A program made the translations under genes and the position numbers. Source: Methylophaga marina (lineage in GTDB: Bacteria; Pseudomonadota; Gammaproteobacteria; Nitrosococcales; Methylophagaceae). From it: DNA of 64,000 nt. The DNA lies in NCBI RefSeq assembly GCF_030296755.1, contig NZ_AP027741.1:2233475-2297474 (forward strand). The letters run 5' to 3'. Numbering within the stretch: position 1 is the stretch's first letter; every line of letters begins with the position of its first letter. Under the pieces are notes generated by a model. It worked only from the letters and a program-made list of their open reading frames with translations, did not search any database and had not been told where the DNA came from. This document shows, in pieces, positions 43,222 to 54,948 of the stretch.

Positions 43222-44630
43222 ATGGCTCAGGGCAGGATCAGACAATACGACGCAAAAATTAATGCCATATCAAGACTGATTGATAGCGGTATTATCCTGC
43301 TAACGTTTTTAGCTTTATTCGATATTTTCCATGCGACCTGGGATGTACTTTATATCTGGAGTCTTTTGTTCGCAATTGTATTGTTTAATTTCTTTGCTGA
43401 GTCACAGGATGCCTACCGCTCGTGGCGGGGTACGGCGTTAAGGGAAGAAGTCTCTGCCGTCATGTTTTCATGGTTTACCAGCGTTTTCATTCTGGTCATG
43501 ATTGATATTTTCTTTATTCATTCTGGTACCTACCTCGATAGTTTTGTTTTCTTATGGTTTTTACTGACACCAATAGAGTTAATTTCCTGGCATGCCATTG
43601 TAAGAACGTCATTGGCCATACTTCGAGCTCGTGGTGTTAATACCAGAAATGTAGCCATTGTCGGTGAGACAACGTTAGGTAAGCGTTTGGAACGTGCATT
43701 CAACGAAATGGATTGGTCTGGGTTCAGACTGGTTGGATACTATGATGATCGTTCACAAAAACGGGTAGAAACAGAACCTAATCTGGTCGTCACAAATAAG
43801 AAAGTAGGTGATTTCAATCAACTCATTGAAGATTGTAAGGCAGGGAAGGTTGATACTGTTTACATCACCTTGGCTATGTCTGCTGAGCATAGAATCAGAC
43901 ATATTACTGAGCTATTAGCCGATAGTACGGCTTCTGTGTATCTTGTTCCTGACTTATTCACATTTAACTTGCTTAATTCCCGATGGGTCGATTACCAGGG
44001 AATCACCGCTATTTCAGTCTATGAAACCCCTTTTGCTGGTATCGACAGTATCCTTAAACGGCTGGAAGATATTATCCTAAGCAGCCTTATCCTGATGATG
44101 ATTGCTATTCCTATGATGGTGATTGCCGCAGGGGTTAAATTGACATCGAAAGGGCCTGTGTTTTTCAAGCAAACTCGCTACGGCATGGACGGTGAAAAAA
44201 TTAAGGTATGGAAATTCCGTACGATGACCGTAACAGAAGATGGAGATACCGTCACACAGGCACAAAAGAATGATAGCCGTATCACGCCATTTGGCGGTTT
44301 TTTGAGAAGAACATCATTGGATGAGTTGCCACAATTCTTTAATTCATTAGGCGGGAGCATGTCGATTGTAGGCCCACGGCCTCATGCTGTAGCACATAAC
44401 GAACAATACCGCGCTCAGATTCAAGGGTATATGTTGAGACATAAAGTCAAACCAGGTATTACGGGCTTAGCCCAGATAAATGGCTTTAGGGGGAAACTGA
44501 TACCTTGGACAAAATGCAGGGTCGTGTGCATTACGATTTAAAATATATCCAGAACTGGTCATTGTTATTAGATATTGAGATTATTTTCTTGACGATATTC
44601 AAAGGGTTTGTGGGTAAAAACGCCTATTGA
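43222..44630 (+). CDS. Undecaprenyl-phosphate sugar phosphotransferase (WcaJ-like), apparent frameshift
   Basis: This enzyme transfers the first sugar phosphate to undecaprenyl phosphate and so starts EPS repeat-unit synthesis. The N-terminus has about four membrane helices and a Rossmann-like CoA-binding domain (NVAIVGETTLGKRLE). A fifth helix precedes the catalytic domain with GPVFFKQTRYGMDGE, KVWKFRTM and LRRTSLDELPQFFN. At a G5 run (44489-44493) the frame is lost; the next frame gives ETDTLDKMQGRVHYDLKYIQ and runs to TGA at 44630. Adding one G gives 469 residues, the usual length. Confidence 0.85.
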
Positions 44631-44867
44631 ATTCCATATTGCGTATCAGTAGTTTTACTTAGGAAAATAAACTTGTTGCCTGCCGTGAGACACGGTATTA
44701 TATAACTCTATTGAAATAGAAGCATCAATCATTGATGTTAGATAACACTCGTTATCGTCATTATTTTCAATAGCAATCAGAACAATAGACATCAACGGTG
44801 ATGGCTTTGTAGCAAGATCATAATCATATGATCTTACACAACGTCAGCGGGTTAGATGTTGTGTAAT
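44631..44867 (+). other. Intergenic leader region before the first sorted-protein cassette
   Basis: No gene is seen here. The stretch holds several short inverted repeats: CCGTG/CACGG (44683-44695), CATCAAT/ATTGATG (about 44723-44737), GATAAC/GTTATC (about 44741-44756) and GATCATA/TATGATC (44816-44833). The last abuts TTACACAAC/GTTGTGTAA (44834-44866). AACAATAGAC at 44781-44790 matches the -10 region of the other two cassettes and may be the promoter. Confidence 0.5.
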
Positions 44868-44948
44868 TAAAGCCAAACTCGCTGTGAGGCGGGGTCGGAA
44901 AGCCACAGATCTTTAAAACTTTTAAAGATGGCTGGGTTGCATTGCTTG
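44868..44948 (+). promoter_or_regulatory. c-di-GMP-I (GEMM)-like riboswitch, copy 1
   Basis: The core fits the GEMM pattern: GCCAAAC, a six-pair stem closed by a GUGA (GNRA) tetraloop (CTCGCT/GGCGGG), CGGAAAGCCACAG, then a long P3 (ATCTTTAAAA/TTTTAAAGAT), GGCTGGGTTGC. The same organisation repeats twice downstream, with compensatory changes. It sits about 30 nt upstream of the first sorted-protein gene. Ligand class (c-di-GMP or a related dinucleotide) is inferred from motif resemblance. Confidence 0.75.
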
Positions 44949-44979
44949 TTTTTTCAACTTATGCATAAGGAAGTTTATT

Positions 44980-45429
44980 ATGAAAAAAGCGATGCTATTT
45001 GTCGTAGCTATGATGTTCTCTGTTGCTGCCAACGCGGCGACATTCAACTTAACAACTTCAGACAGTGCTACTATTTTCGATAGTGGTACGAGCGCTGTTA
45101 GTGCTGCATTTGGTGATACTAATACCACTTTCTCATTGGAAGTGATTGGTGATGGTCCAGCAGCAATCGATTTTGATTTCTCGCCTGCTAGCAAGTTTTC
45201 TGCAGGGACTTTAACAATTGGCACGGAAGTGTTTGCAGTGACTCCAGATTTTACAACAATTCTGAACCTAGCTGCTGGTATCTACAGTGTCACATTTGAT
45301 ATTACTCCTGCATTAGGAAACATGTCATTTGGTGTTTCAGCTGTACCTGTTCCAGCTGCATTATTCTTGTTTGCCCCTGCCTTATTAGGTTTCTTAGGTA
45401 TGCGTAGAAAAAATGCTGTTGCAGCGTAA
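44980..45429 (+). CDS. VPxPA-CTERM (PEP-CTERM type) sorted surface protein, paralogue 1
   Basis: The 149-residue protein has a signal peptide (MKKAMLFVVAMMFSVAANA) and a beta-rich body. The C-terminal sorting signal is VPVPAALFLFAPALLGFLG followed by MRRK: a VPxPA motif, a hydrophobic helix and a basic tail. Exosortases recognise such tails and attach or export the protein to the EPS matrix. It is preceded by a riboswitch and followed by a terminator, so it is transcribed alone. Very similar to paralogue 2. Confidence 0.9.
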   Translation: MKKAMLFVVAMMFSVAANAATFNLTTSDSATIFDSGTSAVSAAFGDTNTTFSLEVIGDGPAAIDFDFSPASKFSAGTLTIGTEVFAVTPDFTTILNLAAGIYSVTFDITPALGNMSFGVSAVPVPAALFLFAPALLGFLGMRRKNAVAA

Positions 45430-45450
45430 GTAAGAGCTACACAAAAATAA

Positions 45451-45476
45451 AAAAGGGAGCATAGGCTCCCTTTTTT
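45451..45476 (+). terminator. Terminator of sorted-protein cassette 1
   Basis: GGGAGC/GCTCCC stem, ATAG loop, T6 tail. The same stem ends all three cassettes. Confidence 0.9.
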
Positions 45477-45536
45477 ATTGGCATAATGCTAATTTTAATA
45501 TCCTATAATCTTGAAAATTAAAACTAATTAGGCACA

Positions 45537-45552
45537 TTGTACCAAGGTACAA
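45537..45552 (+). promoter_or_regulatory. Palindromic operator-like site, cassette 2
   Basis: TTGTACC-AA-GGTACAA is a perfect inverted repeat overlapping a probable -10 box (TACAAT) about 90 nt upstream of the aptamer. The near-identical site precedes cassette 3. It is a candidate binding site for an unknown regulator. Confidence 0.5.
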
Positions 45553-45609
45553 TAGACAGCAACCAAACCTTACTCGTAATATGAAATCATCTGAAAAAGT
45601 CAGATAGGT

Positions 45610-45636
45610 AATTATTAAATTAGTAATTTAATAATT
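45610..45636 (+). repeat. Perfect inverted repeat just upstream of aptamer 2
   Basis: AATTATTAAATT and its exact inverse are separated by 3 nt. An inverted repeat in the same place, with different sequence, precedes the other two aptamers. Confidence 0.6.
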
Positions 45637-45637
45637 G

Positions 45638-45717
45638 ATTAAAGCCAAACTCGTCGTGAGGCGGGGTCGGAAAGCCACAGATCTTTAAAGCAAAGATGGC
45701 TGGGCTGCATTGCTTGT
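45638..45717 (+). promoter_or_regulatory. c-di-GMP-I (GEMM)-like riboswitch, copy 2
   Basis: Same layout as copy 1: GCCAAAC, CTCGTC/GGCGGG stem with a GUGA tetraloop, CGGAAAGCCACAG, P3 ATCTTT/AAAGAT, GGCTGGGCTGC. The shorter P3 loop relative to copy 1 still pairs at the base. About 30 nt upstream of the second sorted-protein gene. Confidence 0.75.
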
Positions 45718-45748
45718 TTTTTCAATTTATGTGTAAGGAAATTTATTT

Positions 45749-46198
45749 ATGAAAAAAGCGATGCTATTTGTAGTAGCTCTAATGTTCTCTGTTGCTGCTA
45801 ACGCTGCCACATATAATTTATCAACAACAGATAGTGCTACTATCTTTGATAACGGTACAAGTGCTGTAAGTGCTTCATTTGGTGACACTACTACTACATT
45901 TTCACTTGAAGTGATTGGCGATGGTCCAGCAGCGATTGATTTTGATTTCTCTCCAACGTCAAAATTTACCTCAGGAACATTGACAATTGGTTCTGAGATC
46001 TTTGCTATAGCCCCTGATTTTACAACAATCTTGAATCTTGTATCAGGTATTTATACTGTATCTTTTGATGTGTTGCCTACTACCGGTAATATGTCATTTG
46101 GTGTTTCTGCAGTGCCTGTGCCAGCAGCATTATTCCTATTTGCCCCAGCTTTATTAGGCTTTTTAGGTATGCGTAGAAAAACTGCTGTTGCAGCATAG
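45749..46198 (+). CDS. VPxPA-CTERM (PEP-CTERM type) sorted surface protein, paralogue 2
   Basis: The 149-residue protein is nearly the same as paralogue 1 in length and sequence: the same signal peptide, the shared IGDGPAAIDFDFSP body motif and the same VPVPA tail with MRRK. Differences are spread through the body rather than clustered, as expected of an older tandem duplication. It is transcribed alone, with its own riboswitch and terminator. Confidence 0.9.
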   Translation: MKKAMLFVVALMFSVAANAATYNLSTTDSATIFDNGTSAVSASFGDTTTTFSLEVIGDGPAAIDFDFSPTSKFTSGTLTIGSEIFAIAPDFTTILNLVSGIYTVSFDVLPTTGNMSFGVSAVPVPAALFLFAPALLGFLGMRRKTAVAA

Positions 46199-46214
46199 AA
46201 ATAACAGTTTTAAT

Positions 46215-46242
46215 AAAAAAGGGAGCTTATGCTCCCTTTTTT
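46215..46242 (+). terminator. Terminator of sorted-protein cassette 2
   Basis: GGGAGC/GCTCCC stem, TTAT loop, T6 tail. Confidence 0.9.
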
Positions 46243-46270
46243 GTATTAATGGGGTAATTGGTTTTTGCTT

Positions 46271-46300
46271 CTGACATATAAAGTTGTACTAAGGTACAAT
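46271..46300 (+). promoter_or_regulatory. Putative promoter with palindromic operator, cassette 3
   Basis: CTGACA (46271-46276) and TACAAT (46295-46300) are 18 nt apart, close to sigma-70. TTGTACT-AA-GGTACAA (46284-46299) overlaps the -10 and matches the cassette 2 operator except for one base. Confidence 0.5.
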
Positions 46301-46386
46301 AGACTTCAATTGAAAAAGTTTCGTATTATTTAATCAACTAGAAAAAGTCAGATAAGCGATTATCATACGATTGACGTGATAATTAA

Positions 46387-46461
46387 TAAGCCAAACTCAT
46401 CGTGAGGTGAGGGCGGAAAGCCACAGGTCTTCAATGCAGGAGATGGCTGGGTTGCATTGCT
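46387..46461 (+). promoter_or_regulatory. c-di-GMP-I (GEMM)-like riboswitch, copy 3
   Basis: Most diverged copy, yet the pairing is kept: CTCATC/GGTGAG closes a GUGA tetraloop with compensatory A-U and U-A pairs in place of G-C and U-G. P3 (GTCTTC/GGAGAT) also covaries. The core CGGAAAGCCACAGG and GGCTGGGTTGC are unchanged. It lies about 30 nt upstream of the third sorted-protein gene. Confidence 0.75.
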
Positions 46462-46491
46462 AATTTTTGCTTATACATAAGGAAAAATATA

Positions 46492-47007
46492 ATGAAAAAA
46501 GTGATGCTATTTATTTTTGCTTTTACATTCTCTGTCGGCGTCAATGCCGCAACGTTGAATTTGTCTACAGAGGATTCTTTTTTAGCTACGCAAGTTGTTG
46601 ATACTGCATCTGGTTCAACAGTATCAGGTTCGGGAGAAGTTAAGGAGCTTGGTGGAGTTGGTAAAGATAGATGGTACTCACAATACAATATAAAATCAGT
46701 CGATGCTAATACACCTGTCAAAATTGAATGGTCATTTGAGCCTCAAGCCAATCTGGAATCTGCTACCTTGGGTTTTGGTCTATTTGGTGGAGCTTACACA
46801 ACGATAGATATCATTGGTAACACTAGCTTCATAGCTTTCTTAGAACAAGGCAAAGTGTATGCCCTCGATATATTCGATGCCAGCGGTAGTAAGCTAGAAT
46901 ACAAAGTATCAGTATCTGCAGTACCAGTACCAGCAGCATTATTCTTGTTTGCCCCAGCTTTACTAGGTTTCTTAGGGCTTAGAAGAAAATCAGCAGTTGC
47001 TGCATAA
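46492..47007 (+). CDS. VPxPA-CTERM (PEP-CTERM type) sorted surface protein, paralogue 3
   Basis: The 171-residue protein keeps the signal peptide (MKKVMLFIFAFTFSVGVNA) and the VPVPAALFLFAPALLGFLG tail with LRRK. The body between them differs almost completely from paralogues 1 and 2. So the control region and both sorting ends were kept while the displayed part changed. This suggests a different ligand or surface role. It is also monocistronic. Confidence 0.9.
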   Translation: MKKVMLFIFAFTFSVGVNAATLNLSTEDSFLATQVVDTASGSTVSGSGEVKELGGVGKDRWYSQYNIKSVDANTPVKIEWSFEPQANLESATLGFGLFGGAYTTIDIIGNTSFIAFLEQGKVYALDIFDASGSKLEYKVSVSAVPVPAALFLFAPALLGFLGLRRKSAVAA

Positions 47008-47050
47008 GAATTAAGATTTATATTAACAGTAAGTTACTGTGACAAATTGA

Positions 47051-47076
47051 AAGGGAGCAAAAGCTCCCTTTTTTTT
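47051..47076 (+). terminator. Terminator of sorted-protein cassette 3
   Basis: GGGAGC/GCTCCC stem, AAAA loop, T8 tail. Confidence 0.9.
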
Positions 47077-47134
47077 GAAAAATAGAGTGTTAATATCAAA
47101 TTTGAATGTCATTTATAGATAAGGATTTTCCCTC

Positions 47135-47686
47135 ATGTCAAAACGCTTCATTTTCTTCTTTTTGATTCTCACTTCCCTATTTTCCTCAAGCGTCTTTGCA
47201 GACCAGCGTTATCTATTAAATTCGGGCGATATTCTAGATATTTCAGTATGGAATGAGGAAGCGTTACAAAAACAAGCCGTCGTGCTGCCAGACGGTATTA
47301 TTACTTTCCCACTAGCCGGTGAAATTGTTGCTAAAGATAAAACAGTAGCTGACGTCGAAGAAGAATTAACCAAAAAACTCAGTGAATACTTAGCTGATCC
47401 TGTTGTCACAGTCTCTGTTACTAGCGTTGAAGGTAATAGGGTACACATTCTAGGCAAAGTCCTAAATCCAGGTTCGTTTGTAATGAATCAACCTCTGGAT
47501 GCTATGCAAGCTTTAAGTTTAGCCGGTGGGTTATCGCCATACGCGGAAGAGAACAATATTATCGTGCTACGAAGAGCCGGCACAACTCAACAAGTCTTAC
47601 CGGTTAAATTTGCTGAAATAAAAAAAGGTAAAGCTCTGAATACCAATATCACACTAGAAAGCGGTGACGTCATCATCGTACCTTAA
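47135..47686 (+). CDS. Polysaccharide export protein (Wza/EpsE-like, SLBB domain)
   Basis: The 183-residue protein has a signal peptide (about residues 1-22), the export domain (YLLNSGDILDISVWNEE, then VLPDGIITFPLAGEI) and one SLBB domain (VHILGKVLNPGSFVMNQPLD). It should form the periplasmic part of the outer-membrane EPS pore. Unlike classical Wza it shows no lipobox cysteine and lacks the C-terminal membrane helix, as in the short exporters of exosortase-linked loci. It opens the export gene run. Confidence 0.88.
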   Translation: MSKRFIFFFLILTSLFSSSVFADQRYLLNSGDILDISVWNEEALQKQAVVLPDGIITFPLAGEIVAKDKTVADVEEELTKKLSEYLADPVVTVSVTSVEGNRVHILGKVLNPGSFVMNQPLDAMQALSLAGGLSPYAEENNIIVLRRAGTTQQVLPVKFAEIKKGKALNTNITLESGDVIIVP

Positions 47687-47713
47687 GCAGAATAATAGCT
47701 GAGAAGCGTGTCA

Positions 47714-48901
47714 ATGATAAAATATATTCCGCTACTGTTGCCTATGTTACTAAGCAACAATGCGTCGGCAGCTGAATGGGTATTTAATGCTCAGGCAGAC
47801 CCTAAATTTAAATACGATGATAATGAATTACTTCGGGAAGATGAGTTAGATGACTTTAGCTTGAACATTGATCCAACCCTTTCACTAACTCGCTCATTAG
47901 AGAACTCGACATCTGAAATACGTCTCGGGTATAGAATTAGTCGATATCAAGACTTAAAAGAACTTGATAAAGAAAACCCATTTGCGAGTTTTAATACGAC
48001 TTATGCCACCGAGCGAAGTACTTACGGACTGAAATTAGACTATGCTGAACGTGAGTCACGGGATATTGCTGAAGAGGATACGGCGGACTTTAGTAATATT
48101 TCTACAACGATTACAAAGAGTATCTCACCATCATTTAGTTACAGGCTGACGGAGCTGGACACTATAAGCACGAGTTTATCTTATCAAACGCGTAAACAAT
48201 CTGATGACTCAAGCAACAGTAACTCAATTCTTGGTTCGTCATCTAACCTCACGGATAATGAAACAGCCAGTTTGAACTTAGCTTGGCAGCATCAATACAC
48301 AGAAAGACTAAATGGTGGCTTATCGTTTACCTACGTTAATTATCAAGCTGAATCAGACAGGCTTGATAATCAATATGATTCTTATTCACTGGGCTTGACT
48401 AGTGAATATCAACTATCTGAGCTTTGGTCGGTCAATGGCTTGCTGGGTGCACGTTATCTGGATAGTGAAAATAGTCCGGTAATTGGTCCAGAAACATCGG
48501 ATCAAAGTACAGGATTAGATTACTCAATCAGTACAACCCGAGAAGATGAGCTGAATAGTTATACTTTATCAGCAAGTAGATCGTTAACACCTTCAAGTGA
48601 GGGGGATGTTAATGAGCAAGATGCCTACACCATTACTTATCGTAGAAACTTCACAGAAAAGCTTACAGGTAACTTATCTGCGAGCTATCGTAAATATAGT
48701 AGTGCTGATGATTTAGATAGCACAGAAACAAAATATTTTGATTTTTCACCTAGTTTATCTTGGAAGTTAGATGAAGACTGGTCTCTTGTTTTTGGATACA
48801 GGTATCGAAGCGTCGATGAATCAGATGGAAAGAATGTAGATGGCAATGCGCTCACATTCAACATCGATTACAATTGGAATGGTATTCGTTTTTCTCGCTA
48901 A
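47714..48901 (+). CDS. Outer-membrane beta-barrel protein of the EPS locus
   Basis: About 395 residues with a signal peptide (MIKYIPLLLPMLLSNNASA) and many short alternating polar/hydrophobic strands (SLNLAWQHQYTERLNGGLSF, YTITYRRNFTEKLTGNLSA). The tail NIDYNWNGIRFSR ends near an aromatic, as in outer-membrane barrels. Exosortase-linked EPS clusters usually carry such a barrel, thought to pass the polymer outwards. ATG 47714 is preferred to the upstream GTG because GAGAAG lies 7 nt away. Confidence 0.75.
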   Translation: MIKYIPLLLPMLLSNNASAAEWVFNAQADPKFKYDDNELLREDELDDFSLNIDPTLSLTRSLENSTSEIRLGYRISRYQDLKELDKENPFASFNTTYATERSTYGLKLDYAERESRDIAEEDTADFSNISTTITKSISPSFSYRLTELDTISTSLSYQTRKQSDDSSNSNSILGSSSNLTDNETASLNLAWQHQYTERLNGGLSFTYVNYQAESDRLDNQYDSYSLGLTSEYQLSELWSVNGLLGARYLDSENSPVIGPETSDQSTGLDYSISTTREDELNSYTLSASRSLTPSSEGDVNEQDAYTITYRRNFTEKLTGNLSASYRKYSSADDLDSTETKYFDFSPSLSWKLDEDWSLVFGYRYRSVDESDGKNVDGNALTFNIDYNWNGIRFSR

Positions 48902-48924
48902 ATCACAGCAAAGAGCAATAATAA

Positions 48925-50685
48925 ATGGAAGAAGAAGTAAAGGGCTTAGGGGACTATCTTAATATTCTCTGGCGTAGAAAATATTGGGTTATTATTCCTG
49001 CTGTGCTGCTAGCCATAGCAACTGTAGTGGTAGTTTTTTCTTTACCTGCTACCTATAAATCTCAAGGCACAATACTGATTGAGTCACAAGAAATTCCCAA
49101 TGACTTAGTCCGTTCAACAGTCACGAGTTATGCTGACCAGCGTATCGAAGTGATTAAGCAACGATTAATGACGACATCCAGAGTGATGGACATGGTCAGA
49201 AAATATGATCTTTATCGTGCTGAGCGTCAAAAAACAGCTGCCACATCAGGCATTGTCGATTTATTTAAATCTAATGTCAGTGTGGATTTGGTTCAAGCAA
49301 ATGTGACTGATCCAGTTAGTGGGCGTGCAAAGCGAGCCAGTATCGCCTTTACCGTTTCATTCATGGATAAATCACCACAAAAAGCACAGCAAGTAGCGAA
49401 CGAGCTTGTGACAGAGTTTCTCAATGAAAACGTCAAAGCCCGCACAGACCGTGCTGCAGAAACCAAAGACTTTCTTAAGGAGGAGGGCGATAAATTTCAA
49501 GCAAAAGTACGTGAGTTAGAAAAACAAATTGCCGAGTTTAAAGATCGTTATAGCGGTAGTCTCCCTGAATTATTACAGTACAATCTTTCGATGATACAGC
49601 GTTTGGGTGATGAACAAAGTACCAATCAAAATGAAATTTTATTATTGAAAGATCAAATCACCACATTAAGTCTACAGCTTTCTACTATTCCGATGTACTT
49701 ACCCTTAGGTGTGACGGCAACTAGTGCAAATGAACCAAACACCTCTGAAGTGCGTCTGGAACAACTAAGAATTGAATACAGCACTTTATTATCAAAATAC
49801 GAACCCACCCACCCAGATGTAGTCAGAGTTAAACGACAAATTGATGCATTAGAAAAAGAGCTGGGTGTTACAGGGAATGATGCTCAAATCATTCAAGCTG
49901 AATTAGACCAGGCAAAGACAGAATTAAATACGCTGAGTGAAAAATATGCCGATAATCACCCTGATATAAAAGCACAAAAAAATAAGATTGCCGGCCTGGA
50001 AAAACGCCTGGAAAACGCTGACAGTCAGCCAGCTGAAACAACGTCATCATCCGAACGATTGAATCCAGCTTATGTGCAACTTAAATCTAAGATAGACTCA
50101 ACGGAAAATGAAGTCTCTCGCTTAAGAGTTCGCCAGGAAGAGATTAAAACAAAACTTGCTGAATTTGAACGCCGTGTTTCGGAAACATACCAAGTTCAGC
50201 GGGCATATGATGAGCTGACACGCGATCATGAAAACACTGTAGCCAAATATCGTGAATTACGTGCTAAGCAATTACAAGCTGAACTGGCTCAGAACTTAGA
50301 GTCAGAAAACAAAGGTGAAAGCTTTACGTTAATTGAACCTCCTGCAGTACCAACTAAGTCAGAAAAACCTAACAGGCCTAAATTACTCGTTCTTGGCTTA
50401 GGCGCATCTGTAGGTGCAGGCTTAGGCTTAGCACTTCTAGTTGAGATGTTTTTTGGTGGGGTAAGAGGGTATACACAAGTTACTCATATTGTTGGTAAAT
50501 CACCACTGGTTGTTATCCCTATTATTACAACAACTCGAGAACTGGCTCGCAGAAAAACATTAAGAAACCGCTGGATCATTATTGCAATTCTGTTAGTTAT
50601 CGCATCAGTGATAGCAGTACACTTTTATGTGATGAACCTCGAAGTGCTGTGGTATCGATTAATGCGAAAAGTCAGCTTGCTTTAA
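48925..50685 (+). CDS. Polysaccharide chain-length determinant (Wzz family)
   Basis: The 586-residue protein has a Wzz N-terminus (LGDYLNILWRRKYWVIIPAV with the first membrane helix), a long periplasmic coiled coil of about 400 residues, a PxxP region (PPAVPTKSEKPNRPKLLVLG) and a second membrane helix. A further hydrophobic stretch lies near the C-terminus (WIIIAILLVIASVIAVHFYV). It should set polymer length together with the BY-kinase encoded next. Confidence 0.9.
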   Translation: MEEEVKGLGDYLNILWRRKYWVIIPAVLLAIATVVVVFSLPATYKSQGTILIESQEIPNDLVRSTVTSYADQRIEVIKQRLMTTSRVMDMVRKYDLYRAERQKTAATSGIVDLFKSNVSVDLVQANVTDPVSGRAKRASIAFTVSFMDKSPQKAQQVANELVTEFLNENVKARTDRAAETKDFLKEEGDKFQAKVRELEKQIAEFKDRYSGSLPELLQYNLSMIQRLGDEQSTNQNEILLLKDQITTLSLQLSTIPMYLPLGVTATSANEPNTSEVRLEQLRIEYSTLLSKYEPTHPDVVRVKRQIDALEKELGVTGNDAQIIQAELDQAKTELNTLSEKYADNHPDIKAQKNKIAGLEKRLENADSQPAETTSSSERLNPAYVQLKSKIDSTENEVSRLRVRQEEIKTKLAEFERRVSETYQVQRAYDELTRDHENTVAKYRELRAKQLQAELAQNLESENKGESFTLIEPPAVPTKSEKPNRPKLLVLGLGASVGAGLGLALLVEMFFGGVRGYTQVTHIVGKSPLVVIPIITTTRELARRKTLRNRWIIIAILLVIASVIAVHFYVMNLEVLWYRLMRKVSLL

Positions 50686-50717
50686 CTGTCACCTGATTCT
50701 TCGAGTAGGAAATAAGA

Positions 50718-51560
50718 ATGGATAGAATTCAAAAAGCCTTAGACAAAGCAAAGCAGAAGCATGCTGGGATCGAGGGTGAGCCAGAAAATACAATTGTGTC
50801 TACGGAAAATGATATAAACACTTCTTTTCCTGAAGATCCATTAGCTCCGCCTTTACAGAATATTGAATACACACAAACAAAAGTGGTTAAAACACCACCG
50901 AGTGTTCTGGAAAACAACCGGGTTATTGCCGGTCATTACAATAATCCGCAATCAGCAGTGTTCCGTATGTTGCGTACACAAGTGTTGCAAAAAATGCGGC
51001 AGAATGATTGGCAAACAATTGCCATTACCTCGCCAACAGCGGGGGAGGGTAAATCATTGGTCTCAGCTAATCTCGCCGTTGCCATTGCTATGGAACTCAA
51101 TCAGACAGTGCTTTTAGTCGATATGGACTTGAGAAATCCTTCGATTGCCAGCTACTTTGGATTAAATGTGGAGGCGGGATTAAAAGAATATCTAGAAGAT
51201 GATTTGTATCTTCACCATGTGCTAGTAAACCCTGGCGTAGAGAGGCTAGTTATATTACCAGGGAAGGGAAGAGCTGAAGATTCAGCCGAGTTACTATCAA
51301 GTCCAAAAATGGCATCTTTAGTGAAAGATATTAAATCGCAATACAACTCTCGATTAATTATTTTCGATGTACCGCCTTTGTTACAGACGGACGATGTTTT
51401 AATGTCTTCGAATTATTTTGACTGTACTTTACTTGTGCTGGAAGACGGGAAAAATAATGAAGAGAACATTAAAAAGTCATTACAGCTATTAGAAGGTTCA
51501 CATCTTGTCGGGACTGTGCTTAACAAAGCAGAAAGACATCCAACCCATCAGAATTATTAA
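50718..51560 (+). CDS. Tyrosine autokinase (BY-kinase, CpsD/Etk type) of the EPS locus
   Basis: The 280-residue cytoplasmic ATPase has the BY-kinase motifs: SPTAGEGKSLVSANLA (Walker A), LLVDMDLRNPS (Walker A') and LIIFDVPPLL (Walker B). It regulates polymerisation by phosphorylating itself and possibly the Wzz partner. Only one tyrosine is near the C-terminus (HQNY), so the usual tyrosine cluster is missing. It is in the place expected of the exosortase-system kinase. Confidence 0.9.
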   Translation: MDRIQKALDKAKQKHAGIEGEPENTIVSTENDINTSFPEDPLAPPLQNIEYTQTKVVKTPPSVLENNRVIAGHYNNPQSAVFRMLRTQVLQKMRQNDWQTIAITSPTAGEGKSLVSANLAVAIAMELNQTVLLVDMDLRNPSIASYFGLNVEAGLKEYLEDDLYLHHVLVNPGVERLVILPGKGRAEDSAELLSSPKMASLVKDIKSQYNSRLIIFDVPPLLQTDDVLMSSNYFDCTLLVLEDGKNNEENIKKSLQLLEGSHLVGTVLNKAERHPTHQNY

Positions 51561-51563
51561 TTC

Positions 51564-52454
51564 ATGTATACAGAACATTTTGGTCTGAATTTCAAGCCGT
51601 TTAACCTGGTACCTGATCCTAAGTTTTTATATCTTAGCCCTGTACATAAAAAAGCCTTAACCATGCTCGAATATGGCTTAATGAGTCAGGCGGGTTTTAC
51701 AGTCGTTACCGGAGAGATTGGTGCGGGTAAAACAACATTAATTCGGTCTCTGTTAAAAAAACTGGATGATGAATACCTGATCGGATTGATTAATAACACG
51801 AGTGAATCGTTCGGTGAATTGATGGAGTGGGTGCTTGATGCACTAGAAATACCATCTTCAGCCACTGATAATGCGGGTCGTTATCGTGATTATGTTGATT
51901 TTGTTGTTGAACAACATGCAAAAGGTAAAAAAATTGTTCTGATTGTAGATGAAGCTCAAAACTTATCAGTTAAGGCTTTGGAAGAGTTAAGGCTACTTTC
52001 AAACGTTAATATTGATGCAGATATCTTTATGCAGTTGGTATTAACTGGGCAGCCTGAACTCAGTGATAAACTTAATTTACCCGAGCTTGAACAGTTTGCT
52101 CAACGAATTGGCGTTGAATATCATCTAAAAGCATTGAGCTATCCAGAAACACAAAAATACATTGAACACCGAATGGAAATTGCCGGTGCAGACCATAAGA
52201 TTTTTACCAATGAAGCCTGCGCTGCTATCTTCTGCTATAGCGAAGGCGTACCAAGGCGTATCAATAACCTATGTGACTTTGCTCTAGTATATGCTTTTGC
52301 TGATGATTCGAAAGAGGTCAATGTCAATACGGTAATTGATATGATTAAAGATAAACGTTCATCTACCATTATTAAAACAAAAGACAGCCAAAACCCAGAT
52401 GTTAAACGTGTTCGTAGTTGGCTTCTTGAGTTATACAATGTCCATCTGGTCTGA
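51564..52454 (+). CDS. ExeA-like AAA ATPase of exosortase-type EPS loci
   Basis: The 296-residue protein has LNFKPFNLVPDPKFLYLSP, the Walker A motif GEIGAGKTTLIRSLL, Walker B LIVDEAQNLS and the sensor-like LVLTGQPEL. Proteins of this type are typical of exosortase A EPS clusters, where the role is unclear, perhaps assembly of the export machine. It starts 3 nt after the kinase gene, so both are one operon. Confidence 0.87.
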   Translation: MYTEHFGLNFKPFNLVPDPKFLYLSPVHKKALTMLEYGLMSQAGFTVVTGEIGAGKTTLIRSLLKKLDDEYLIGLINNTSESFGELMEWVLDALEIPSSATDNAGRYRDYVDFVVEQHAKGKKIVLIVDEAQNLSVKALEELRLLSNVNIDADIFMQLVLTGQPELSDKLNLPELEQFAQRIGVEYHLKALSYPETQKYIEHRMEIAGADHKIFTNEACAAIFCYSEGVPRRINNLCDFALVYAFADDSKEVNVNTVIDMIKDKRSSTIIKTKDSQNPDVKRVRSWLLELYNVHLV

Positions 52455-52593: not shown

Positions 52594-54948
52594 ATGTCAA
52601 TCAAATATAATATATTTTTAGCAATTTTTGGCATGTTCCTGACAAGTACGCAAGTATTGGCTGATTGCATTGTAACTAATAATAATTTCAATAAATCTTC
52701 AAAGATTATTTTTGTTAACCAATACAACGGAAGTGATCAGCTCGCAAAAATATACTCCCTAGACAATGTTCGTAACCCATATGAAGCGAACAACGTGGCA
52801 GCTTTTCAGAGTATTGAAAAGGCAAAATCTTTGGCTGATACAGATAATGGTGATCTGATTTTGATAAAAGCTGGTCCCCAATGGACTAATTATCAGGCCT
52901 GGGAAGGCAATAAACTCTCTGAATTTAATAAAGAAGTCATGAAAGCTAAAGTGATGTCCCAAAGGCAGTGTCAAGAAGAGTCCTTAACTTGGGTTCCTCC
53001 AGCTGTTAATGATAACCAACCTGATCAACAACCCGTAACAACAGATTTTGTCAGCGATCCTGACGAAGTGACTCTGGCCAGAACACAAGAAACGTCCCCT
53101 ATTAGCTTACCTGGTATCACTTCATCCAATACGAATGATACAACTCAGTCTTCAAATTCATCTGGAAGAACCAGCTCATCAAGCAGTTCTTCGGGAGGCT
53201 CAAGCAGAGGGGCAAACTCTAATAACTCTACTAACCAGACTTCTCAATCATCAAGTCAAATGGAGTCTAGTGAGTTACCAACTAACATGACTTCTAAAGC
53301 TAATGCCCGTAATACGACTTTTGGAGCCCCTGAAAACCTTATTGATGATCCTGATACTCAGTCAGTGTCGGATTCGAATGAGGATGTCATTAATGAAAGC
53401 CCTGAAGATGAACCACTTACTGAAAATAATCCTATTCAAGAAATACCTGACCAAAGTCATAGCTCTGCATGTTATAAAACAGCTGAATGGCAATATCAAA
53501 TACACCAATACCAGCACGATAATGACGGTTGGTCGAAAATAACACCAGATAGTTCTTCAAGATTGATTTATGTGAGCTCATCGGAAGGTAATGATGACAA
53601 AGCAAGATATTATAGCCCTTCTGAAGTTGGGGATATCGATACACCAGTCAATATCATTCCTTTTCAATCAATTGCTAAAGCTTATAAGCACGTGAGAAAA
53701 GGACGTCCGGATTGGATTCTTTTGAAAAGAGGTGATTCCTTCGAGCTTCAATCAACACTATATCTACAATCTGGTGAATCAAAAAATGCACCAATGGTTC
53801 TTACTGCATATGGAAATGACAAAACAAGACCTGTAGTTGATTCTAAAAACTTTACAGCATTAATGATGGGGAGTAAGAGTCATATAGCTATTGTAGGTAT
53901 AGAGTTATACCCTAGCAAGCTTGATCCTAATTCTACAGGGTTCTCAGGTTGGGGAAACATGAAACAAAATGCTATTGGCATAGCTAGTATTTCTGGTTCG
54001 CAATCGGACAACATACTAATTGAGAATGTTCGTGTGAGTTATTACAAAAATAATATTGTAATTGGTGGCGGTGGGGGACATAAAAATGTTGTTATAAGAA
54101 GAAATGAGATTCTAAATGCATATAGCGATACAGGTCATTCACAAGGTGCATCTATTGCATATGTCGATGGATTATTAATTGAGGAAAATTTGTTTGATCA
54201 CAATGGATGGTATCAACAACGACCATTATCTGTTGCCCTCAATACCAAATCTTATGGCTATGCTACATGGTTTAACCATAATGCTTATATAATCGATTCG
54301 GCAAATATGATTCTGAGAGAGAATCTAATCTCAAGATCTTCAAGTATAGGTGTAAAATTCACAGCAAATTCTGATAAACAAACTAAGACTAATAGTATTC
54401 GAGCATATAATTATCTTATAACCGATAATATTGTAACTGAAGGTGAGGTTGGTTTCTCATTAGGTGGTAATACTGATTTTAATAATGGCTATAGATGGAA
54501 AAATATAAATGTAACACATAACATTTTTAGTAATATAGGAAGGACTAAACCTACCAATAGAGAGCTATCATGGAATATGCAAATCGATGATTGGGATACA
54601 GGAAGTGTATGTTTTAATTTGATGGCTGATCAAACAAATAATTCACTTACAAATATTAAAGGTATTGATGTTTATGGTGAGAATAGGGATGTTTCGATAT
54701 TTATGAACAAATTCATTAATATTGGTCTTTCGGCTGAGAGTTATCAAAACAAATCTGAAGATTTTACTTCATATCAAAATTCATATTTACCTAAATATAA
54801 TACTAATTTATTGAACTCATATACTGGTAGTGATAGCTATGACACTTATATAGAGGGAGTTCGGAGCAGACTAGAAGATAACTATTTAGAGTATCCTGAT
54901 ATAACTAATATGTTGGAGTATTTAAGGACTAGAGCACCATCATTTTAA
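52594..54948 (+). CDS. Large secreted right-handed beta-helix protein with duplicated N-terminal module
   Basis: The 784-residue protein has a signal peptide (about residues 1-24, ending VLADC). A first module follows (IIFVNQYNGSDQLAKIYS...AAFQSIEKAKSLAD), then a Ser/Asn-rich linker of about 100 residues. A second, similar module (LIYVSSSEGNDDKARYYS...PFQSIAKAYKHVR) leads into a parallel beta-helix with repeated turns (NILIENVRVSYYKNNIVIGG, NVVIRRNEILNAYSD). Beta-helix proteins in EPS loci are often lyases or epimerases; catalytic residues were not identified. An exposed EPS-binding or modifying role is likely. Confidence 0.72.
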   Translation: MSIKYNIFLAIFGMFLTSTQVLADCIVTNNNFNKSSKIIFVNQYNGSDQLAKIYSLDNVRNPYEANNVAAFQSIEKAKSLADTDNGDLILIKAGPQWTNYQAWEGNKLSEFNKEVMKAKVMSQRQCQEESLTWVPPAVNDNQPDQQPVTTDFVSDPDEVTLARTQETSPISLPGITSSNTNDTTQSSNSSGRTSSSSSSSGGSSRGANSNNSTNQTSQSSSQMESSELPTNMTSKANARNTTFGAPENLIDDPDTQSVSDSNEDVINESPEDEPLTENNPIQEIPDQSHSSACYKTAEWQYQIHQYQHDNDGWSKITPDSSSRLIYVSSSEGNDDKARYYSPSEVGDIDTPVNIIPFQSIAKAYKHVRKGRPDWILLKRGDSFELQSTLYLQSGESKNAPMVLTAYGNDKTRPVVDSKNFTALMMGSKSHIAIVGIELYPSKLDPNSTGFSGWGNMKQNAIGIASISGSQSDNILIENVRVSYYKNNIVIGGGGGHKNVVIRRNEILNAYSDTGHSQGASIAYVDGLLIEENLFDHNGWYQQRPLSVALNTKSYGYATWFNHNAYIIDSANMILRENLISRSSSIGVKFTANSDKQTKTNSIRAYNYLITDNIVTEGEVGFSLGGNTDFNNGYRWKNINVTHNIFSNIGRTKPTNRELSWNMQIDDWDTGSVCFNLMADQTNNSLTNIKGIDVYGENRDVSIFMNKFINIGLSAESYQNKSEDFTSYQNSYLPKYNTNLLNSYTGSDSYDTYIEGVRSRLEDNYLEYPDITNMLEYLRTRAPSF

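Follow-up and report, generated by a model that had tools for sequence, protein, structure and literature searches.

We propose, with a probability of about 57%, that three adjacent cassettes in a 64,000-nucleotide stretch of Methylophaga marina DNA (the whole stretch is hereafter called the window) are one-gene units under a translational ON switch responding to cyclic di-GMP (c-di-GMP), and that their products, which carry a VPxPA-type C-terminal tail, are sorted by the exosortase XrtD. Each unit would comprise an upstream region, a 5' hairpin, a class I c-di-GMP aptamer and the gene for a secreted VPxPA protein. Without c-di-GMP, a helix between the aptamer 3' end and the first codons of the gene would hold the start region in a closed loop, and its stem, at +8 to +16, would hinder the 30S subunit, so that the protein is not made. 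As c-di-GMP needs C92 of the aptamer for its own base pair, its binding would break the helix and translation would start, after which XrtD would sort the cassette proteins to the cell surface or the matrix. How biofilm bacteria control their exosortase substrates is understood only in part, and a regulon gated by one riboswitch lineage would link c-di-GMP directly to surface display. The cassette parts are as follows (window positions; bp, base pairs; ORF, open reading frame).

44834..44866, + strand: hairpin directly 5' of aptamer 1 (TTACACAACGTC..GATGTTGTGTAA), 12 bp, shuffle p 0.01
44862..44944, + strand: c-di-GMP-I aptamer of cassette 1 (Rfam match); G20, A47 and C92 kept, C21-G46 replacing G21-C46
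44939..44947, + strand: 3' strand of aptamer 1, GCATTGCTT (C92 = 44940), partner of codons 3-6 by complementarity
44980..45429, + strand: surface protein 1, 149 amino acids, signal-peptide-like start, VPVPA tail (ORF, motif)
44987..44995, + strand: AAGCGATGC in codons 3-6 of cassette 1, complement of 44939-44947
45455..45470, + strand: terminator-like hairpin GGGAGC/GCTCCC of cassette 1 (sequence)
45537..45552, no strand assigned: palindrome TTGTACCAAGGTACAA 5' of aptamer 2, candidate operator (sequence)
45609..45637, + strand: hairpin directly 5' of aptamer 2, 13 bp, shuffle p 0.01
45634..45712, + strand: c-di-GMP-I aptamer of cassette 2 (Rfam match)
45707..45715, + strand: 3' strand of aptamer 2, GCATTGCTT (C92 = 45708; complementarity)
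45749..46198, + strand: surface protein 2, 149 amino acids, 85% identity to protein 1 (ORF, alignment)
45756..45764, + strand: AAGCGATGC in codons 3-6 of cassette 2 (complementarity)
46221..46236, + strand: terminator-like hairpin GGGAGC/GCTCCC of cassette 2 (sequence)
46284..46299, no strand assigned: palindrome TTGTACTAAGGTACAA 5' of aptamer 3 (sequence)
46358..46384, + strand: hairpin directly 5' of aptamer 3, 9 bp, shuffle p 0.04
46381..46460, + strand: c-di-GMP-I aptamer of cassette 3, best Rfam match RF03167
46454..46461, + strand: 3' strand of aptamer 3, GCATTGCT (C92 = 46455; complementarity)
46492..47007, + strand: surface protein 3, 171 amino acids, 37% identity to protein 1, same tail (ORF, alignment)
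46500..46507, + strand: AGTGATGC in codons 3-6 of cassette 3, weaker complementarity (8 pairs, two of them G-U)
47053..47068, + strand: terminator-like hairpin GGGAGC/GCTCCC of cassette 3 (sequence)

The identity of the aptamers was ascertained by scanning the window with cmscan at the Rfam gathering thresholds (35 bits for RF01051; 59 bits for RF03167, c-di-GMP-I-GGC). Aptamers 1 and 2 matched RF01051 (57.0 and 54.7 bits) and aptamer 3 matched RF03167 (60.8 bits), all on the + strand; in the genome search aptamer 3 also scored 57.0 bits with RF01051. With the region 44600-47150 searched alone, RF03167 was the best model for all three, aptamers 1 and 2 remaining below its cut-off (57.0 and 57.9 bits). 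Neither scan listed a match to c-di-GMP-II. The preliminary description of this DNA had read three GEMM-like aptamers, each with a gene for a VPxPA-CTERM protein and a GGGAGC/GCTCCC terminator, and had proposed an Infernal comparison with the two c-di-GMP models of Rfam; that comparison, the ORFs (VPVPA-tailed) and the sequence bear it out, and each cassette has its own upstream region and its own terminator-like hairpin. The ligand-contacting G20, A47 and C92 (numbering and role as in PMC3764141 and PMC4744006; all papers designated by PMC numbers are cited from the portions of their text available to us) occur in the three window aptamers and in 96/96, 96/96 and 95/96 aptamers of the genus, respectively.

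The fold is well constrained. Among 34 related aptamers, the stems P2 and P3 are 98.0% and 97.6% paired, and 13 of the 16 pairs in these stems vary on both sides. Of five covariation measures taken over the whole structure, four exceeded every one of 500 shuffles and one (further pair types) was equalled in 107/500; all five beat the slid-structure controls. P1 is weakly conserved, 43.4% paired and no better than slid structures, which speaks against our proposal; the RF01051 consensus itself carries no annotated P1 pairs. The earlier claim that the stems covary holds for P2 and P3. At four loci (L005, L010, L013 and L014) the aptamers read, by eye, GCCAACC for GCCAAAC with a different base before C44; this subgroup is a possible covarying P2 substitution.

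One core pair departs from the Rfam consensus: all 96 genus aptamers have C21-G46 in place of G21-C46, an invariance that makes the pair uninformative on covariation. This swap, together with RF03167 being the best model for the three copies searched alone, could mean that the ligand is another cyclic dinucleotide, for instance 3',3'-cGAMP, or that the aptamers are a variant of altered specificity. The swapped positions are listed among the contributors to ligand binding in a simulation paper (PMC9049102), a second point against our proposal. We nevertheless regard a change of ligand as quite improbable: G20 is kept in 96/96 aptamers, G20A being the change tied to cGAMP binding (PMC7288161), and A47 is kept in all three window aptamers, unlike the G at that position in the printed RF03167 consensus (that this G is an RF03167 trait is our inference from the printed consensus). 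With G20 kept and no c-di-GMP-II match, assignment to the c-di-GMP-II or cGAMP classes was dropped. A pattern demanding the swap also matched contigs of Psychromonas, Sulfurovum, Arcobacteraceae, Neptuniibacter and deltaproteobacteria, at which matches no tailed ORF was found; at the matches in Methylococcales and Methylomonas contigs, a tailed ORF lay downstream in 3/4.

Across the genus, the riboswitches and the VPxPA tails travel together. First, 96 aptamers were found in 15/24 genomes, including the same-species genome G004, the window genome (G000) having 14 above the family cut-off. By regular expression, the ORFs behind these 96 aptamers comprise 83 tailed ones, five with VPLPP tails, seven that run off the stretch and one that is frame-broken. 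A tail profile recovers the tails of 4/7 cut ORFs, the start of a fifth and the tail of the frame-broken one (at 460162 on C3 of G022, locus L101, where the tail is kept downstream). A VPxPA tail is hence seen for 94/96 aptamers, the two remaining genes leave their contigs, and there is no counter-example. Second, at E <= 0.01 the tail profile matches 18/24 genomes: the 15 riboswitch genomes at a best E of 1e-14 or better, and three others (G015, G017, G018) with a single borderline match apiece (E 0.004 to 0.005), so that riboswitches and strong tails fall in the same 15/24 genomes. The window genome has 18 matches, including all 14 riboswitch genes; of the tails lacking a riboswitch, two are strong (107053 and 2116762), one is weaker (2169478) and one marginal (2397833). 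Third, an exosortase above cut-off occurs in 14/15 riboswitch genomes and in 4/9 others.

In the other genera of the family, among the matches listed (63 aptamers), 55 precede tailed ORFs by pattern and two more by eye. The remaining six comprise two without a tailed ORF, two with the ordinary G21-C46 core whose ORFs leave the stretch, and two orphans, found in two genomes (L231 1501-1587 and L242 1501-1588), which are directly followed by a terminator-like hairpin and face the 3' end of a gene that we labelled ahpF-like by eye; these orphans are possible antisense or stand-alone riboswitch RNAs. As controls, we took the longest ORF near the aptamer at more distant loci. Tails were found in 0/15 closed ORFs at 30 class-level loci (13 ORFs cut, two loci without ORF) and in 0/2 at three order-level loci (one ORF cut). 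On these sequence data, this riboswitch lineage is coupled near-exclusively to VPxPA genes in the genus. The arrays at such polysaccharide loci run from one to five cassettes, five in a row being found in G009 (L117; C7 317000-324500), and the window genome has a second cluster of three aptamers, two of them divergent and all with VPxPA genes (G000 C1 2496353-2498389, L047). The preliminary description knew of no account of three such adjacent copies; this does not hold, since PMC5918138 reports a trio in Methylophaga nitratireducenticrescens.

As the candidate switch, we consider the complementarity, in the MKxxML family that includes all three window genes, of 5'-GCAUUGCUU-3' in the leader to 5'-AAGCGAUGC-3' in codons 3-6. 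The leader strand consists of position 91, C92 and the next seven bases, that is, the aptamer 3' end, and the helix encloses the Shine-Dalgarno sequence and the start codon. Of the 52 MKxxML sequences of the whole taxonomic family, 51 retain eight or more of the nine pairs and 40 retain the complete set, the mismatches lying mostly at pairs 8 and 9 (six and five sequences). In 40 genus sequences, the helix is 97% paired, as compared with 32-57% when the partner is shifted by one to three bases. Three pairs show compensatory change: one sequence has A-U for G-C at pair 1 (its Leu6 being TTA instead of CTA), four have A-U for G-C at pair 6, and one has U-A for C-G at pair 7. A permutation test on the 12 distinct combinations gave p 0.0017 when Watson-Crick pairs alone were counted and 0.014 when G-U pairs were included.

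Codon use points the same way. Within the 39 genes, Ala4 is always GCG (34/34), as compared with 89/832 Ala codons further downstream, and Leu6 is always CTN (39/39), as compared with 224/679 downstream Leu codons. Codons 8 to 14 and those of the tail are variable. Fisher p-values on such counts are too small, because related genes are counted as independent. Folded in the free state, copies 1, 2 and 3 form the helix with probabilities of 0.93, 0.85 and 0.37. Since the helix contains C92, the full helix and the ligand-bound state are mutually exclusive, and the conserved complementarity between the aptamer 3' end and codons 3-6 thus predicts a translational ON switch.

Several further results weigh against this proposal. 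First, codon 2 (AAA in 39/39) and codon 7 (TTT in 36/38 Phe), which lie outside or at the edge of the nine pairs, are near-invariant too, which means that something other than the helix underlies some of the codon conservation. Second, when aptamer folding was enforced in the 96 leaders, the ribosome site became more accessible (change above 0.05) in 11 and less accessible, by the same margin, in 27, and in the window copies the accessibility of -15 to +16 barely shifted (0.40 to 0.43, 0.29 to 0.25 and 0.35 to 0.41 in copies 1, 2 and 3). A simple two-state model thus did not show the ribosome site opening. Third, in copies 1 and 2 a 7-bp remnant of the helix is compatible with the folded aptamer unless P1 forms, and an additional 8 to 9 kcal/mol is needed to force P1; copy 3 could form no P1 pair in the folding test. 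Fourth, among the 19 leader families tested, MKxxML alone is significant (median p 0.02); combined, the families give a Fisher p of 0.12, or 0.27 without MKxxML, and the comparison of each family's own strand with those of the other families gives p 0.09. A leader helix common to all 19 families is thus unsupported.

Published transcripts bear on the level of control. The strains GP59 and JAM1 of M. nitratireducenticrescens have three adjacent genes more than 88% similar to each other, each with a class I c-di-GMP riboswitch, amid polysaccharide genes (PMC5918138); PMC12530212 calls these genes PEP-CTERM and measures the riboswitch transcripts. In anoxic GP59, relative to mxaI = 100, copy 1 gave 2,011 for the riboswitch and 936 for the gene, and copies 2 and 3 gave 9.1/7.3 and 6.5/30. 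In anoxic JAM1, copy 1 gave 1,561 and 777 and the other two copies were low, copy 1 being among the most highly expressed genes of the anoxic cultures (PMC5918138). The available figures show no strong loss of RNA between riboswitch and gene, which fits control of translation rather than termination. One riboswitch is higher in planktonic anoxic cells and the other three nearby are higher in biofilm (PMC12530212); the trio copies do not move together in either paper's available data. Our genome G006 is probably M. nitratireducenticrescens, because its aptamers, at 1405158, 1406079 and 1407020, lie close to the positions published for GP59 (1405201, 1406231 and 1407172); we found six aptamers in it, as against the seven listed for GP59 (PMC12530212).

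These opposite transcript levels in biofilm and planktonic cells, and the simple modelling in which the ribosome site does not open, are what would be expected if the riboswitch acted through RNA stability or transcription, or switched OFF, the start region not being opened and the helix serving as an mRNA-stabilising fold or as a structure showing the Shine-Dalgarno GGA to a protein such as CsrA. A strong hairpin directly 5' of the aptamer, as in stabilised 5' ends, occurs in 23/37 MKxxML cassettes and in 32/86 cassettes overall (p <= 0.05, mononucleotide shuffles), these hairpins being mostly unrelated in sequence. We judge this alternative unlikely on two grounds. The complementarity takes in C92 and position 91, with pair 1 compensated in one sequence, so that the full helix excludes the ligand-bound state. 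A run of five T between aptamer and start codon, such as the U run after aptamers 1 and 2, occurs in only 27/96 leaders, so that intrinsic termination was rejected as a general mechanism.

The translational ON switch also has to be weighed against control by the promoter. The GTAC palindrome GTACYAARGTAC lies 58 to 117 bases 5' of 47/96 genus aptamers, versus about 1/96 expected from mononucleotide shuffles; at the five MKFYK genes another copy occurs near -210. The genus has 55 exact sites versus 0 for the reversed pattern, 5/55 of them in four genomes that lack riboswitches. When as many as two mismatches were allowed, the palindrome did no better than its control (18 versus 17 reversed matches in the window genome; four matches, all exact, versus 3.25 expected in the window). 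Of 12 matches in the window genome with at most one mismatch, nine precede VPxPA genes, including the two strong ones that lack a riboswitch, and two are one place read on both strands, near transposase-like ORFs. The twelfth (L183) stands before an ORF that contains a von Willebrand A domain and whose N-terminus we take to resemble LapA-type adhesins, hinting at a wider biofilm regulon.

The promoter and this palindrome might accordingly set expression for the most part, leaving the riboswitch as a minor or decaying layer. We consider this very improbable: the core bases and the P2/P3 pairing of the aptamers are clearly constrained, 49/96 aptamers lack the palindrome, and in G006 the palindrome is found at copy 3 only. 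Copy 1, with its very high published transcript, and copy 2, with a low one, both lack it, so the palindrome does not explain those levels. Within the window, it stands before cassettes 2 and 3 and not before cassette 1. Because of this difference, and because the helix has 9 bp in copies 1 and 2 versus a weaker 8 bp in copy 3, the three copies should respond differently under the proposed switch.

The cassettes also vary between strains. Comparing cassette 1 with its counterpart in G004, DNA identity is 94% upstream, 98% in the aptamer, 100% in the leader and 85% in the tail, but only 38% in the part encoding the mature protein. Four other loci have a passenger that is 92-100% identical between the two genomes; at a fifth it is 52% identical, the orthology being unsure there because the upstream DNA is only 66% alike. 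The array itself has two cassettes in G004 and three in the window genome. From this small sample of two genomes, it looks as if the displayed domain were exchanged between fixed cassette ends. Mobile spread was considered and rejected, as there was no plasmid match and no relative of protein 1 was confirmed among viral contigs.

All three window ORFs end in SAVPVPAALFLFAPALLGFLG[ML]RRK (a tail also given as VPVPAALFLFAPALLGFLG[ML]RRK), with the C-terminal motif, hydrophobic stretch and basic end, and start with what we judged by eye to be a signal-peptide-like N-terminus. The VPLPA-CTERM model TIGR03370 (cut-off 25.35) gave 13.0 bits for protein 1 and 11.7 bits for protein 2, protein 3 being unlisted; as these scores are below cut-off, the tails were called from the motif and its degree of conservation, together with the presence of a cognate exosortase. 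The latter, XrtD, is VPLPA-CTERM-specific by type (TIGR04152; 524 bits, cut-off 400) and lies about 25 kb downstream of cassette 3, outside the window. In genomes with both on one contig, array and exosortase are about 26 to 32 kb apart (G003, G004, G008, G009, G012, G020, G021 and G022) or 46 kb apart (G006). We infer that XrtD processes the VPxPA tails of the cassette proteins. The motif, the XrtD match and the neighbouring NCBIfam matches agree with the preliminary description, which had placed exosortase-type tails in a polysaccharide locus. An AlphaFold model of protein 1 (mean predicted local distance difference test score 69, predicted template-modelling score 0.55) yielded weak Foldseek matches, with a query template-modelling score of at most 0.48 among the 50 listed; many of these are beta-sandwich carbohydrate- or collagen-binding domains, which we take as a hint only.

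The trio sits between an undecaprenyl-phosphate glucose phosphotransferase ORF and the following exosortase-type polysaccharide genes, among which only the chain-length match exceeds its curated NCBIfam cut-off.

47135..52454, + strand: exosortase-associated polysaccharide genes (best NCBIfam match): export protein, outer-membrane protein, chain-length determinant, tyrosine autokinase and ATPase

The phosphotransferase ORF (43222-44541) ends early, its profile being covered to about position 410 of 453; by eye, similar coding resumes in another frame, with a frame break near the G run at about 44490. The frame of XrtD is likewise broken near its 5' end in the window genome (L146 9198-10571; G000 2305084-2305841) and open in most relatives; both breaks may be assembly errors. 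A generic terminator scan of the window called the first cassette hairpin alone, on the - strand, a result perhaps due to pairing of the T run with the stem. Behind the exosortase-system ATPase, an ORF of 784 amino acids (52594-54948) had no Pfam or NCBIfam match at E 1e-5.

Putting these data together, we tentatively advance, at slightly less than even confidence, a broader view. A lineage of c-di-GMP-I riboswitches would have become the dedicated switch of the substrates of one exosortase, with an anti-aptamer embedded in codons 3-6 of its largest family. Sensor, signal peptide, passenger, sorting tail and terminator would together form a transplantable display cassette: strains would exchange the displayed domain and keep both ends fixed.

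As regards known systems, the trio of GP59 and JAM1 resembles that of the window in its adjacent similar genes, its class I riboswitch before each, its polysaccharide locus and its genus. It differs in its surroundings, GP59 having seven c-di-GMP riboswitches with mixed neighbour genes (PMC12530212) and the window genome 14 aptamers. In their available portions, the papers on these strains put forward neither an expression platform nor a genus-wide VPxPA regulon, nor a palindrome or passenger exchange, our literature search not having been aimed at the helix or the palindrome. The trio being already known, the present analysis adds the codon-embedded helix, the polymorphic structure of the cassettes and the near-exclusive regulon that joins riboswitch and exosortase.

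The XrtD/VPLPA-CTERM system (TIGR04152, TIGR03370) provides a second comparison: the exosortase of our locus scores far above the XrtD cut-off, whereas the substrate tails stay below the VPLPA-CTERM one. Third, Vc1 of Vibrio cholerae is a c-di-GMP-I aptamer before gbpA, which encodes a secreted adhesion protein; it has no apparent terminator and raises gbpA expression with c-di-GMP by a mechanism stated as unclear (PMC4744006). Vc1 differs in serving one gene, and the available text mentions no leader-codon helix; the codon-embedded helix proposed here would be a concrete candidate expression platform for a c-di-GMP-I switch of this kind. Fourth, Bc3-5 of Bacillus thuringiensis also comprises three class I c-di-GMP riboswitches in a row (PMC4759541), but these stand in one 5' untranslated region, whereas each aptamer of the window has its own gene and its own terminator-like hairpin.

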